DNA from: Candidatus Cloacimonadota bacterium
GTDB lineage: Bacteria > Cloacimonadota > Cloacimonadia > Cloacimonadales > TCS61
DNA length: 36,848 nucleotides
NCBI GenBank assembly: GCA_021734245.1
Contig: JAIPJH010000018.1
Location: 1 to 36,848, forward strand
Reading direction: 5' to 3'
A model generated the notes under the pieces. It saw only the letters and a list, made by a program, of their open reading frames with translations. It made no database searches and was not told the origin of the DNA. Both the position numbers and the translations under genes were made by a program. Shown piece after piece: positions 23,808 through 27,352 of this stretch. The first letter of the stretch is position 1. Each line of letters begins with the position of its first letter.

Positions 23808-23994
23808 ATAAAGAAATTCATAAATTTTACTCTCCCCATAGCAGAGTCAGGGGGTATTTCGCCAAATTTATTTCAGCAAGCTGAAAACCGAATTCTTATT
23901 ATTTACTCCTCTCCGGCAACTGCCGGATCTCCCCTCAAAAAAGGGGAGAAAATTTGGAAACTCCGAGGCAGAGCAGCGAGGAAATCTTTCGATT
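23808..23994. repeat. Dispersed structured repeat, copy 1
   Basis: First of three related copies. Inverted pairs inside are CCCC/GGGG (23834/23850), CCAAATTT/AAATTTGG (23862/23950), TTCAGC-AA-GCTGAA (23872-23885), CCGGCA-AC-TGCCGG (23913-23926) and CTCCCC/GGGGAG (23929/23943). It has no coding capacity. Apart from this element, the stretch 23735-24030 holds nothing I can identify. Confidence 0.8.
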
Positions 23995-24030: not shown

Positions 24031-24300
24031 TTACTGATCTATGATTTTGATCAATTCCTTTCCTAAATATGGAATAAAGATTTCTATTTGATTTGAGAAA
24101 TATTGTTTGTGGATAAAAAAGGTTAAATTTTGATATTTTATTTCTATGAAATCGGCTTTATCTTCTGGAGCAGCCATCTTCTCGGACAGCATTTTTACAA
24201 CGTTTCATCAGCCTTTCATCACTGGAAAAAGATCTATTGTGATGATATTACCTTTAGTTAATATGTAGTTTTCTAATCTCCTGGAAATTTCAATTTTCAT
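24031..24300 (-). CDS. Small protein with two consecutive in-frame UGA codons; probable selenoprotein (CC/Se-motif type)
   Basis: The ATG at 24300 directly follows the kdsD stop (TAAATG), with an SD-like GGTGGG inside the kdsD end. The frame runs 90 codons to TAA. Only codons 31 and 32 (24210-24205) are stops, both UGA. Residues before them (MKIEISRRLENYILTKGNII, then TIDLFPVMKG) and after them (AAPEDKADFIEIKYQNLTFF, then IPYLGKELIKI) read as one soluble alpha/beta protein of 89 aa. From memory it resembles short (seleno)proteins defined by a Cys-Cys or Sec-containing pair, so UGA-UGA would encode Sec-Sec. A possible SECIS hairpin (24170-24190) is weak. The alternative is a decayed gene, but two adjacent stops at the motif site and no other lesion argue against decay. 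Confidence 0.6.
24170..24190 (-). promoter_or_regulatory. Weak SECIS candidate for the UGA-UGA gene
   Basis: On the minus strand GCUGUC pairs with GGCUGC (one U-U mismatch, one G-U pair) around a 9-nt loop beginning 20 nt after the second UGA. The position suits a bacterial SECIS, but the stem is poor and the loop lacks a clear GGU. Confidence 0.3.
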
Positions 24301-25263
24301 TTATCCCACCACACCGGCTTTGATCAAATCATGCATCTGCAATACTCCGACCGGTTTGTATTTTTCATCTACTACAGGAAGTAAAGTGATGTTATTATCT
24401 TCCATCAGATTCAAGGCATCAACTGCCAATGAATTTCCTGAGATCGTTTTGGGATCTTTTGTCATTGTTTCCGAAACAGTTTTATCCATGATGTTTTGCT
24501 GATTTTTGAGTAAAATTCTTTTCAGATCACCATCGGTAATAATTCCAACCAATTTATCATTATTATCGATAACGATAGTTCCTCCAATGTTGATATCCAA
24601 CATTTTCTGTATTGCTGAATTCATTGTTTCATTTTCTTTTACAATTGGGATTTCTTTGTGCATCAATTCTTCCACTCGCAAAAGAAGCTTTTTCCCAATT
24701 GTTCCACCGGGATGAAATTGAGCAAAATCAGATTCCTGGAAATCTCGTTTTTTCAGCAGTGCTACTGCAATGGCATCACCAACTGCCAGAGCGACTGTTG
24801 TGCTGGCAGTGGGAACTAAACCAAATGGCTCGAATTCTTTGGCAACATGACAATCGATGATCAGATCGGCATTTTTTGCCAGTTTGGAATCCAGATTTCC
24901 TGTGAAAGCGATGATGGGAATTTTATTGAATTTGATGAATGGAATTATTGATATCAATTCTTCAGTATTACCGCTGTTGGAAATTGCTAATACAACATCT
25001 TCCGGCTGAAGAATTCCCAGATCGCCGTGAATACCTTCTGCAGCATGCAAAAAAATGGAAGTGGTGCCGGTACTGGAAAGCGTTGAAGCAATCTTGCGTC
25101 CAATAATGCCGGTCTTCCCCATTCCGGTTACAACAACTTTACCCTGGCAATTAAAGATCAATTCGATCGCTTTTTCGATATTTTCATCTATGCGATCAGC
25201 TACTTTTTGAATTGCTTCTGCTTCCAGGTTCAGTTCTTTTTTCACGAAATCGATAATATTCAT
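24301..25263 (-). CDS. kdsD: Arabinose-5-phosphate isomerase (KdsD/KpsF family)
   Basis: The enzyme converts ribulose-5-phosphate to arabinose-5-phosphate, the first step to Kdo of LPS. The start at 25263 (MNIIDFVKKELN) follows SD CGGAG and gives the normal length of 320 aa; an upstream in-frame extension runs through a structured intergenic element. The SIS domain (about 30-170) has VVVTGMGKTGIIGRKIA, FLHAAEGIHGDLGIL and ISNSGNTEEL. Two CBS domains follow (about 200-320). The leader may hide the SD by pairing. The stop is fused to the start of the UGA-containing gene. Confidence 0.94.
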   Translation of the reverse strand: MNIIDFVKKELNLEAEAIQKVADRIDENIEKAIELIFNCQGKVVVTGMGKTGIIGRKIASTLSSTGTTSIFLHAAEGIHGDLGILQPEDVVLAISNSGNTEELISIIPFIKFNKIPIIAFTGNLDSKLAKNADLIIDCHVAKEFEPFGLVPTASTTVALAVGDAIAVALLKKRDFQESDFAQFHPGGTIGKKLLLRVEELMHKEIPIVKENETMNSAIQKMLDINIGGTIVIDNNDKLVGIITDGDLKRILLKNQQNIMDKTVSETMTKDPKTISGNSLAVDALNLMEDNNITLLPVVDEKYKPVGVLQMHDLIKAGVVG

Positions 25264-25267
25264 ATTT

Positions 25268-25355
25268 ACTCCGAAAATCATTAACTTCCGAATGTACGAA
25301 GTCCTTCGGAATGTTTGATGATCAACAATCGGAAGAGCCCCGAATTTATCGGAGT
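25268..25355 (-). promoter_or_regulatory. Leader structure that can cover the kdsD SD
   Basis: In the transcript ACTCCGA (25355-25349) pairs perfectly with TCGGAGT (25274-25268), which contains the kdsD SD. A second stem, CTTCCGA (25335-25329) with TCGGAAG (25291-25285), is nested inside. It could control translation, or it may be a dispersed repeat that happens to abut the gene. Confidence 0.45.
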
Positions 25356-25376
25356 GCATTCCGCTGTTTAAATGAA

Positions 25377-25435: not shown

Positions 25436-27352
25436 CTATTTCTTTTCGTCGTTTTCCTGTTTAATTTCTGCAGTGATCTCAGCCAGTTCTTTGCTGCCCA
25501 GATCACCTTTACCATGACATCTGACAGATACTTTACCGCTTTCCTGTTCTTTTGCTCCCACGATGAACATATAAGGAATCTTGCGCATTTCAGCAGCACG
25601 GATCTTGTAGCCGATCTTTTCATTCTGCAAATCGATTTCGCTACGAATTCCAGCAGCTTTCAGCTTGGAATTAACTTCCCTGGCATATTCTTCATAATGT
25701 TCGGAAATCGGAATCACTTCCACCTGAACAGGACATAACCAGAGCGGGAAATTACCGGCATGATATTCGATCAGAGTTCCGAAGAATCTTTCCATCGAAC
25801 CCAGCAGAGCACGATGCACCATGAAGGGTCGATGCGGCTGATTATCTGCTCCAATATATTCCATGCCGAAACGTTCCGGTAAATTAAAATCGAATTGAAT
25901 AGTGGAACATTGCCAGCTCCTGTTCAAAGCATCTTTGATCTTGATGTCTATTTTCGGACCGTAAAAAGCTCCGCCACCTTCATCAACTTTATAATCGATG
26001 TTCTCGGCTTTCAAAGCTTTTTCCAGAGCAGAAGTTGCTTTATCCCAATCTGCTTTTTCTCCCACTGCTTTTTCCGGCATGGTGGAAAGATAAATGTCCA
26101 TATTTTCAAAACCGAAAGCTTTCAGAATATCGATCGAAAACTTCAAAACATTCATAATCTCATCATCCAGCTGCTCAGGAGTGCAGATGATGTGGGCATC
26201 ATCCTGAGTGAAGCCGCGCACCCGCATTAAACCATGCAGAGCGCCTGATTTTTCGTAACGATAAACAGTTCCCATTTCTGCCATTTTTATGGGCAGATCG
26301 CGATAACTATGCTTCTCCGACTGATAAATAGCAATGTGGAAAGGACAATTCATCGGTTTTAGATAATATTCCTTTTCATCTACCACGATTGGGCTGTACA
26401 TGCTTTCTTCATAAAACTGCAAATGACCACTGGTTTCCCACAATTCTTTCTTTCCGATATGTGGAGTATTTACTACATCATAACCATCTTCAAAGTGACG
26501 CTTTTTCCAATAATCTTCGATCACAGAACGCATCAAAGCTCCATTGGGATGCCACATTACAAGACCCGGTCCGATCTCGTCGGAAATGGAATATATATTA
26601 AGTTCCTTTCCAAGCTTGCGATGATCTCTCTTCTTGGCTTCTTCCAGCATTTCCAGGTATTGGTTCAGTTCTTTGTTGGAAGGAAAACTGATGCCGTAAA
26701 TTCGCTGCAGCATCTTGTTTTTCTCATCACCTCGCCAATAAGCACCGGAAGTTTTCAAGAGCTTGACAGCTTTGATCATACCAGTATTTGGCAGATGCGG
26801 TCCTCGACAAAGATCGGTGAATTTTCCCTGAGTATAGAGCGAAATGATCTCACCTTCAGGAATTTCATTCAATATCTCAACTTTGTAGCTCTCACCCATA
26901 TCAGCAAATTTCTTAATTCCTTCTTCACGGGTGATCTCTTCTCGTTTATATTCCAATTTCTGCTTAGAAAGCTCTTTCATTTTTGCTTCGATCTTGACCA
27001 GATCAGCATCGGTGAAAGGAACTTCTTTATCAAAATCGTAATAAAATCCCTGCTCGATTGCGGGACCGATAGTTACTTTTACATCCGGGAAAAGCTCTTG
27101 TACTGCTTGCGCCATCAGATGTGCAGTACTGTGCCAGTAAACTTCTCTGCCAATTTCACTATCAAATTTATAAAGTTCGATCGATGCATCTTCGCCAATT
27201 GGAGCATTCAAATCGATTAACTTATCATTAACTCTGGCTGCAACAACATTGCGAGCCAAACCCGGACTGATGCTCATTGCCACATCATACGGGCTAATAT
27301 CTTTTGGAAAGTCCTTTATGGAACCATCCGGAAATTTAATTTTTATATTCAT
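25436..27352 (-). CDS. thrS: Threonine--tRNA ligase
   Basis: ThrRS charges tRNA-Thr and edits Ser-tRNA-Thr. The 638-aa length is normal and the start follows SD AAAGGAG. The TGS domain (1-60) begins MNIKIKFPDGS. The editing domain has the zinc-type HSTAHLMAQAV (His74, His78) and CRGPH. The class II core has MRVRGFTQDDAHI, the zinc site MNCPFHIAIY, GAFYGPKIDI and motif 3 HRALLGSMERFFG. A C-terminal anticodon domain follows (about 535-638). A short SD-led reading frame and a hairpin precede it at 27384-27440. Confidence 0.98.
   Translation of the reverse strand: MNIKIKFPDGSIKDFPKDISPYDVAMSISPGLARNVVAARVNDKLIDLNAPIGEDASIELYKFDSEIGREVYWHSTAHLMAQAVQELFPDVKVTIGPAIEQGFYYDFDKEVPFTDADLVKIEAKMKELSKQKLEYKREEITREEGIKKFADMGESYKVEILNEIPEGEIISLYTQGKFTDLCRGPHLPNTGMIKAVKLLKTSGAYWRGDEKNKMLQRIYGISFPSNKELNQYLEMLEEAKKRDHRKLGKELNIYSISDEIGPGLVMWHPNGALMRSVIEDYWKKRHFEDGYDVVNTPHIGKKELWETSGHLQFYEESMYSPIVVDEKEYYLKPMNCPFHIAIYQSEKHSYRDLPIKMAEMGTVYRYEKSGALHGLMRVRGFTQDDAHIICTPEQLDDEIMNVLKFSIDILKAFGFENMDIYLSTMPEKAVGEKADWDKATSALEKALKAENIDYKVDEGGGAFYGPKIDIKIKDALNRSWQCSTIQFDFNLPERFGMEYIGADNQPHRPFMVHRALLGSMERFFGTLIEYHAGNFPLWLCPVQVEVIPISEHYEEYAREVNSKLKAAGIRSEIDLQNEKIGYKIRAAEMRKIPYMFIVGAKEQESGKVSVRCHGKGDLGSKELAEITAEIKQENDEKK

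Follow-up and report, generated by a model that had tools for sequence, protein, structure and literature searches.

A small reading frame with two adjacent UGA codons

The minus strand of the 36 848 nt stretch of Candidatus Cloacimonadota DNA analysed here (hereafter, the window) carries a short reading frame interrupted by two consecutive UGA codons, and raises the question of whether this frame is a gene and, if so, whether both codons are read as selenocysteine (Sec). The features relevant to this question are listed below.

24031..24300 (-), 89-codon gene with two in-frame UGA codons (translation, NF041239 match, seven homologs, AlphaFold model)
24205..24210 (-), UGA-UGA at codons 31-32, predicted Sec-Sec (in register in 8/8 homologs; on the CC columns of NF041239)
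24173..24190 (-), putative SECIS hairpin GCUGUC-CGAGAA-GAUGGC (folds at -5.8 kcal/mol; position matches the GGUC hairpins of relatives)
24301..25359 (-), KdsD/KpsF-type arabinose-5-phosphate isomerase, directly upstream (TIGR00393, 305 bits; SIS and CBS domains)

The frame reads from an ATG at 24300 to 24034, followed by a TAA stop at 24033-24031, and its product is MKIEISRRLENYILTKGNIITIDLFPVMKG-UU-NVVKMLSEKMAAPEDK...IIDQ. The original prediction, made from the sequence alone, was of an 89-codon frame beginning at the base after the kdsD stop; its coordinates are correct and the strand is minus. Translation also confirmed that the TGA codons 31 and 32 (24210-24205) are, as had been claimed, the only in-frame stops within it. 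A plus-strand reading of 24031-24300 was ruled out (many stops, no gene). The upstream gene encodes an isomerase of the KpsF/GutQ family (KdsD-like; 305 bits against a TIGR00393 cut-off of 203.7). An overlap between the two genes had been proposed, but they are merely adjacent, with the kdsD TAA (24303-24301) abutting the ATG at 24300 with zero gap and no overlap, and the window gene is probably translationally coupled to kdsD. Searching Pfam with the window protein returned a spurious Anoctamin match alone, under its cut-off, and searching Rfam with the locus gave only a chance match. Downstream of the gene, at 23890-23960, there are two GC-rich inverted repeats (CCGGCAACTGCCGG and CTCCCCTCAAAAAAGGGGAG) that may represent a terminator or a repeat element.

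The frame on its own carries little weight. Using a filter that required at least 25 codons from an ATG before the TGATGA and at least 50 codons after it, 15.5 % of first-order Markov copies of the window contained one or more passing frames, and a single such frame is therefore not significant. When the same filter was applied to 174 kb of real loci (18 fetched stretches), seven matches were obtained, each of them in a stretch bearing a homolog. Hence, the double-UGA frame is meaningful because it is conserved in homologs, despite its near-chance occurrence when considered alone. The window includes a second TGATGA at 26724-26729 (-), flanked either way by approximately 40 open codons in a frame that lies within thrS; it shows no signs of a gene and was taken as a chance occurrence.

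Homologs retain the UGA pair

A profile search of 125 genomes from the phylum found the gene in eight, including the genome that contains the window; two further matches (G098 and G020) were weak and were judged to be spurious. A first search, covering 99 related genomes, had found six further copies; in each of them TGA occurs exactly twice, at the position of the pair. In all eight copies TGATGA follows the same Gly codon and the frame is open on both sides, and in none of them is there a Cys codon at the pair. The relatives share only 28-35 % identity with the window copy; in the full-length alignment the figure is 28-34 %, and Gly-U-U, K36, S39 and M42 are the invariant residues there. Searches of two congeneric genomes, G001 and G002, gave no match, and no relatives were found among viral contigs and plasmids or in a contig scan using the whole protein with the pair as Cys codons (TGT/TGC). 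A contig search using only the part after the pair returned four named records, from three Candidatus Cloacimonadota isolates and Candidatus Cloacimonas sp. SDB.

In comparisons between homologs, dN is lower than dS both before and after the UGA pair; for the closest pair (G008 and G018), dN/dS is approximately 0.06 before it and 0.29 after it. Judged from these comparisons, purifying selection acts on both sides of the pair, and the two flanks, which had earlier been read as one coherent protein, fold into a single compact domain in the AlphaFold model (see below). Further frame lesions in relatives would have counted against the Sec-Sec reading, and none were seen in the homologs.

Relationship to NF041239 and other selenoprotein families

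When the UGA codons are read as Cys, the window protein scores 41.1 bits against NF041239 (curated cut-off 40), a family named Moor_selen_rel, CC/Se motif family (seleno)protein, and described from Moorella thermoacetica; the two are of the same length and the match is near-gapless over residues 1 to 75. Replacing C31 or C32 with Ala costs 5.3 or 3.3 bits, respectively, and masking both costs 9.5 bits, which places the UGA pair on the CC columns of the family. Six relatives were scored in the same way and all fell below the cut-off (16.6-37.1 bits), the window copy being the highest of the members tested. The Cloacimonadota set thus represents a divergent branch, and the gene is a variant of a known family and not a new kind of system. 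A search for homologs with Cys or Sec at the pair had been suggested as a check of the Sec-Sec reading, and both the seven further UGA-UGA copies and the CC columns of the NF041239 model answer to that description.

In a 2026 catalogue covering 119 families of prokaryotic selenoproteins, NF041239 is entered with a single Sec in a CxxU-type motif (PMC13188914, Table 1), whereas every Cloacimonadota copy found has UGA at both residues. No prokaryotic motif tabulated there has two adjacent Sec (PMC13188914), though an earlier mention elsewhere is possible. Two Sec per protein, as here, are found in the double-Sec families MbdU (CU), the UxxU proteins and Sec-containing FrhD/VhuD, but in none of these are they adjacent (PMC13188914). 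The HesB-like selenoproteins and IscA/HesB (TIGR01911, NF038090 and TIGR00049) are also of relevance, as the predicted fold of the window protein is closest to IscA, SufA and DsrR, though the similarity is weak. Unlike IscA/HesB, the window protein lacks the C-terminal CxC cluster ligands of A-type carriers and has Sec-Sec in place of UxGP; it includes no Cys at all, and none is conserved in the relatives. One homolog matches NF038090 weakly (E 0.16). A HesB-like protein encoded in another genome (G061:C31, L029), with CS instead of the CC site, scores with TIGR01911, TIGR00049 and NF041239 (24.7 bits), and could possibly be a bridge between IscA/HesB and the CC/Se family.

Selenocysteine machinery and genetic code

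The presence of selA, selB, selC and selD had been proposed as a second check. The window genome (3.1 Mb, 98.5 % complete) includes SelB (347.5 bits), tRNA-Sec (60.1 bits) and SelD (359.6 bits), all over cut-off. For SelA, only the N-terminal 148 positions are present, at a contig end, and the score of 139.6 bits is under cut-off because the gene is cut by the contig end. The tRNA-Sec gene and selB are on opposite strands, approximately 140 bp apart (G000:C61; L009, L017, L050). In the same genome selD also encodes a selenoprotein, its in-frame TGA giving Sec in AAGUAGK (G000:C93, L026), and it has a different SECIS, possibly an AGUCC-GGC-GGACU hairpin. FdhA was sought in the window genome as a second Sec gene for comparison of SECIS elements, but only a weak partial match, with no TGA, was found.

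Across the phylum, SelB was over cut-off in 56 of 125 genomes (by tally), among them six of the eight that carry the UGA-UGA gene; the two carriers in which it was not are G008 (680 contigs) and G016 (61 % complete). In carrier G046 two genes (G046:C92 and G046:C82) exceed the curated cut-off for SelB, which could mean two SECIS specificities. TGA terminates 14 of 77 long ORFs and also terminates the G018 homolog itself. As UGA is an ordinary stop elsewhere and ends one of the homologs, the code is not reassigned.

A hairpin downstream of the UGA pair

A hairpin is found at the same spot in all eight copies, and its loop is the classical bacterial SECIS loop GGUC in seven of them. The hairpin of these seven relatives reads CCRUC(C/A)-GGUC-GGAUGG or closely resembles it; counted from the first UGA its loop lies 23-24 nt downstream, and from the second 20-21 nt. 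In the window copy the loop starts 20 nt past the second UGA and 23 nt past the first. Published criteria for bacterial SECIS elements are a loop of 3-9 nt, a stem of 4-16 bp, a G in the first two loop positions, a spacing of 16-37 nt and a minimum free energy of at most -7.5 kcal/mol (PMC13188914). The window hairpin fulfils those for loop, stem, G and spacing but, at -5.8 kcal/mol, not that for energy, and it lacks GGUC; its energy is no better than that of shuffled sequences. Taken alone, the hairpins of the relatives meet the criteria, except that of G013 at -7.3 kcal/mol, and in longer stretches from G008 and G018 an alternative pairing is slightly more stable than the hairpin. Of the eight hairpins, that of the window departs furthest from the canonical SECIS form; this is the chief doubt about the window copy, and it makes Sec insertion less certain there than in the family.

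The helix is 95.8 % paired across the alignment, and this falls to 17-56 % when it is slid by 1-3 columns. The strong conservation of the stem leaves only slight covariation, and 120 of 500 shuffles do equally well. Within the hairpin, Gly is encoded by GGT in 7/7 cases and Arg by CGG in 6/6, compared with pooled usage of 0.32 and 0.09, respectively (not corrected for shared ancestry), and codon choice here looks to be driven by the RNA. In so far as sequence comparison can show it, the hairpin is conserved at the RNA level in the relatives.

Predicted fold

AlphaFold models built with the eight-sequence alignment were confident for both the window protein (pLDDT 92.3, pTM 0.81) and the L038 protein (pLDDT 92.3, pTM 0.84). 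In the model both halves contribute to one compact domain, and the pair occupies the turn that connects strands 19-29 and 33-41. Among PDB structures the model is most similar to IscA and SufA, and DsrR ranks within the ten best matches, but the resemblance is weak (E 0.009-0.3 for most, TM 0.36-0.47). Comparison with Escherichia coli IscA using hhalign was not significant, and a sequence profile gave no meaningful match to PDB chains. Aligned by eye, the GCSG of IscA appears to line up with the GUUN of the UGA-UGA protein. Weak as the matches are, an IscA/HesB-like fold is considered probable.

Genomic context

The kdsD neighbour had been considered an unexpected context. The adjacency is real but was seen only in this genome, and relatives lie in arsenic resistance (ars) clusters. 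The ars genes adjoin the UGA-UGA gene in four of the eight carriers (G008, G013, G018 and G037), forming three complete clusters with acr3 and one partial cluster. The gene order is ArsP permease, thioredoxin-domain protein, ArsG/DsbD-like membrane protein, UGA-UGA gene, ArsC and ACR3 in L040, and thioredoxin, ArsG/DsbD-like gene, UGA-UGA gene and ACR3 in L041, with no ArsC between the last two. In L038 (G018) it is rhodanese, TauE/SafE, UGA-UGA gene, ArsC and ACR3, and in L043 it is ArsP, rhodanese, TauE/SafE, UGA-UGA gene and ArsC, up to the contig end. The rhodanese and TauE/SafE genes directly upstream in these last two clusters (L038 4439-5605 and L043 1193-2358) suggest a sulfur or selenium link in these operons. 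In G016, the UGA-UGA gene follows a thioredoxin/ArsG-like fusion.

No ars neighbours were found in the window, G046 or G041, and acr3 is absent from the window genome. As these three copies are outside ars operons and one of the genomes is without acr3, arsenic may not be the general role. Overall, 31 of 125 genomes encode acr3. Three of these also carry the UGA-UGA gene, and in all three the two genes are no more than approximately 1 kb apart. The UGA-UGA gene is an accessory one, being missing from most genomes of the phylum that have acr3. A version with CC was sought in eight other ars loci (G002, G010, G015, G019, G031, G033, G040 and G114) and was not found.

Is the UGA pair read as Sec-Sec?

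We conclude, with a probability of about 0.72, that the gene encodes a small single-domain Sec-Sec selenoprotein, a variant of NF041239, for which an arsenic-linked diselenol/diselenide is the best guess. Sec insertion, the arsenic ligand and expression of Sec-Sec from the window copy are inferred, and there is no peptide evidence. We have high confidence in the more limited claim that the protein encoded by this family contains Sec at the UGA pair. The Sec-Sec reading put forward originally is very probably right, supported as it is by the seven UGA-UGA homologs, the hairpins of the relatives, the Sec machinery and the CC columns of NF041239.

Among the alternatives, the one that deserves most attention is that the family is truly Sec-Sec but the window copy is losing Sec, its SECIS loop having decayed such that translation mostly ends at codon 31 and leaves a 30-residue remnant. 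The loop CGAGAA in place of GGUC, the shallow hairpin and the long divergence from the other copies are all consistent with this, as are the location outside an ars operon in a genome without acr3 and the lack of a match in G001 and G002. Yet 87 sense codons of AT-rich DNA have acquired no further stop or frameshift, the window copy has the top NF041239 score of the members tested, the fold is confidently predicted, and dN remains below dS relative to the relatives across the downstream part; we therefore consider decay of the window copy unlikely, though it cannot be dismissed. Less likely again is that only one UGA is decoded as Sec, with a near-cognate tRNA (Trp or Cys) reading the other and a mixed product as the result. 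A single hairpin has to serve two codons that lie at different distances from its loop (23-24 and 20-21 nt), and the catalogued NF041239 members have one Sec (PMC13188914, Table 1). However, both distances are within the accepted range of 16-37 nt and UGA occupies both positions in 8/8 genomes; were one Sec dispensable, some genomes should show TGC/TGT or TGG there.

The remaining two explanations are already contradicted. By chance or through an assembly artefact, a stretch antisense to a gene or between genes could be open apart from a double stop without being a gene at all and, with 0.155 expected, such a frame is not rare per window; but seven homologs with the same architecture come from separate assemblies and the pattern is absent from the other fetched stretches tested, which makes this very improbable. 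General reassignment of UGA in the lineage (e.g. to Trp or Gly) has the least to recommend it, as no support for it was found, TGA ends 14/77 long ORFs and the G018 homolog, and Sec machinery is present.

If the Sec-Sec reading is correct, one SECIS hairpin just past the UGA pair would recruit SelB with Sec-tRNA(Sec) and serve both UGAs in turn, the distance between the hairpin and the decoded codon shortening by one codon between the two insertions. The UU pair would be the only conserved chalcogen site, located (by eye) at the end of the strand where IscA has its first cluster-binding Cys. In the relatives within ars operons, the resulting vicinal diselenol/diselenide would most likely bind a thiophilic metal(loid), arsenite being the best guess, or alternatively may act as a two-electron shuttle in arsenic handling; for copies outside ars operons, a general soft-metal or Fe-S role would fit. 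ArsD, an arsenic metallochaperone encoded in arsenic operons and proposed to bind As(III) via a vicinal Cys pair, resembles this protein in having a vicinal pair of group-16 residues, but these are Cys instead of Sec and a different fold is expected. A vicinal diselenol that binds arsenite or performs redox chemistry is the function we favour, but it is unproven. The full proposal, namely a conserved natural family with an encoded adjacent Sec-Sec, two successive insertions from a single SECIS, and a diselenol arsenite ligand or diselenide redox switch in Cloacimonadota ars operons, remains tentative, its chances being a little below even.

An adjacent Sec pair would mean that UGA is read twice running using one SECIS at two distances, with two chances of termination, and a small, conserved natural substrate would allow tandem Sec insertion to be tested directly. 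Gene callers that treat every UGA as a stop would report only the first 30 codons of such genes, and the family should therefore be missing or truncated in annotations. In chemical terms, a vicinal diselenol should bind arsenite and other soft metals strongly and form a redox pair of low potential, and the position of the gene beside arsC and acr3 in several genomes ties selenium use to arsenic defence.
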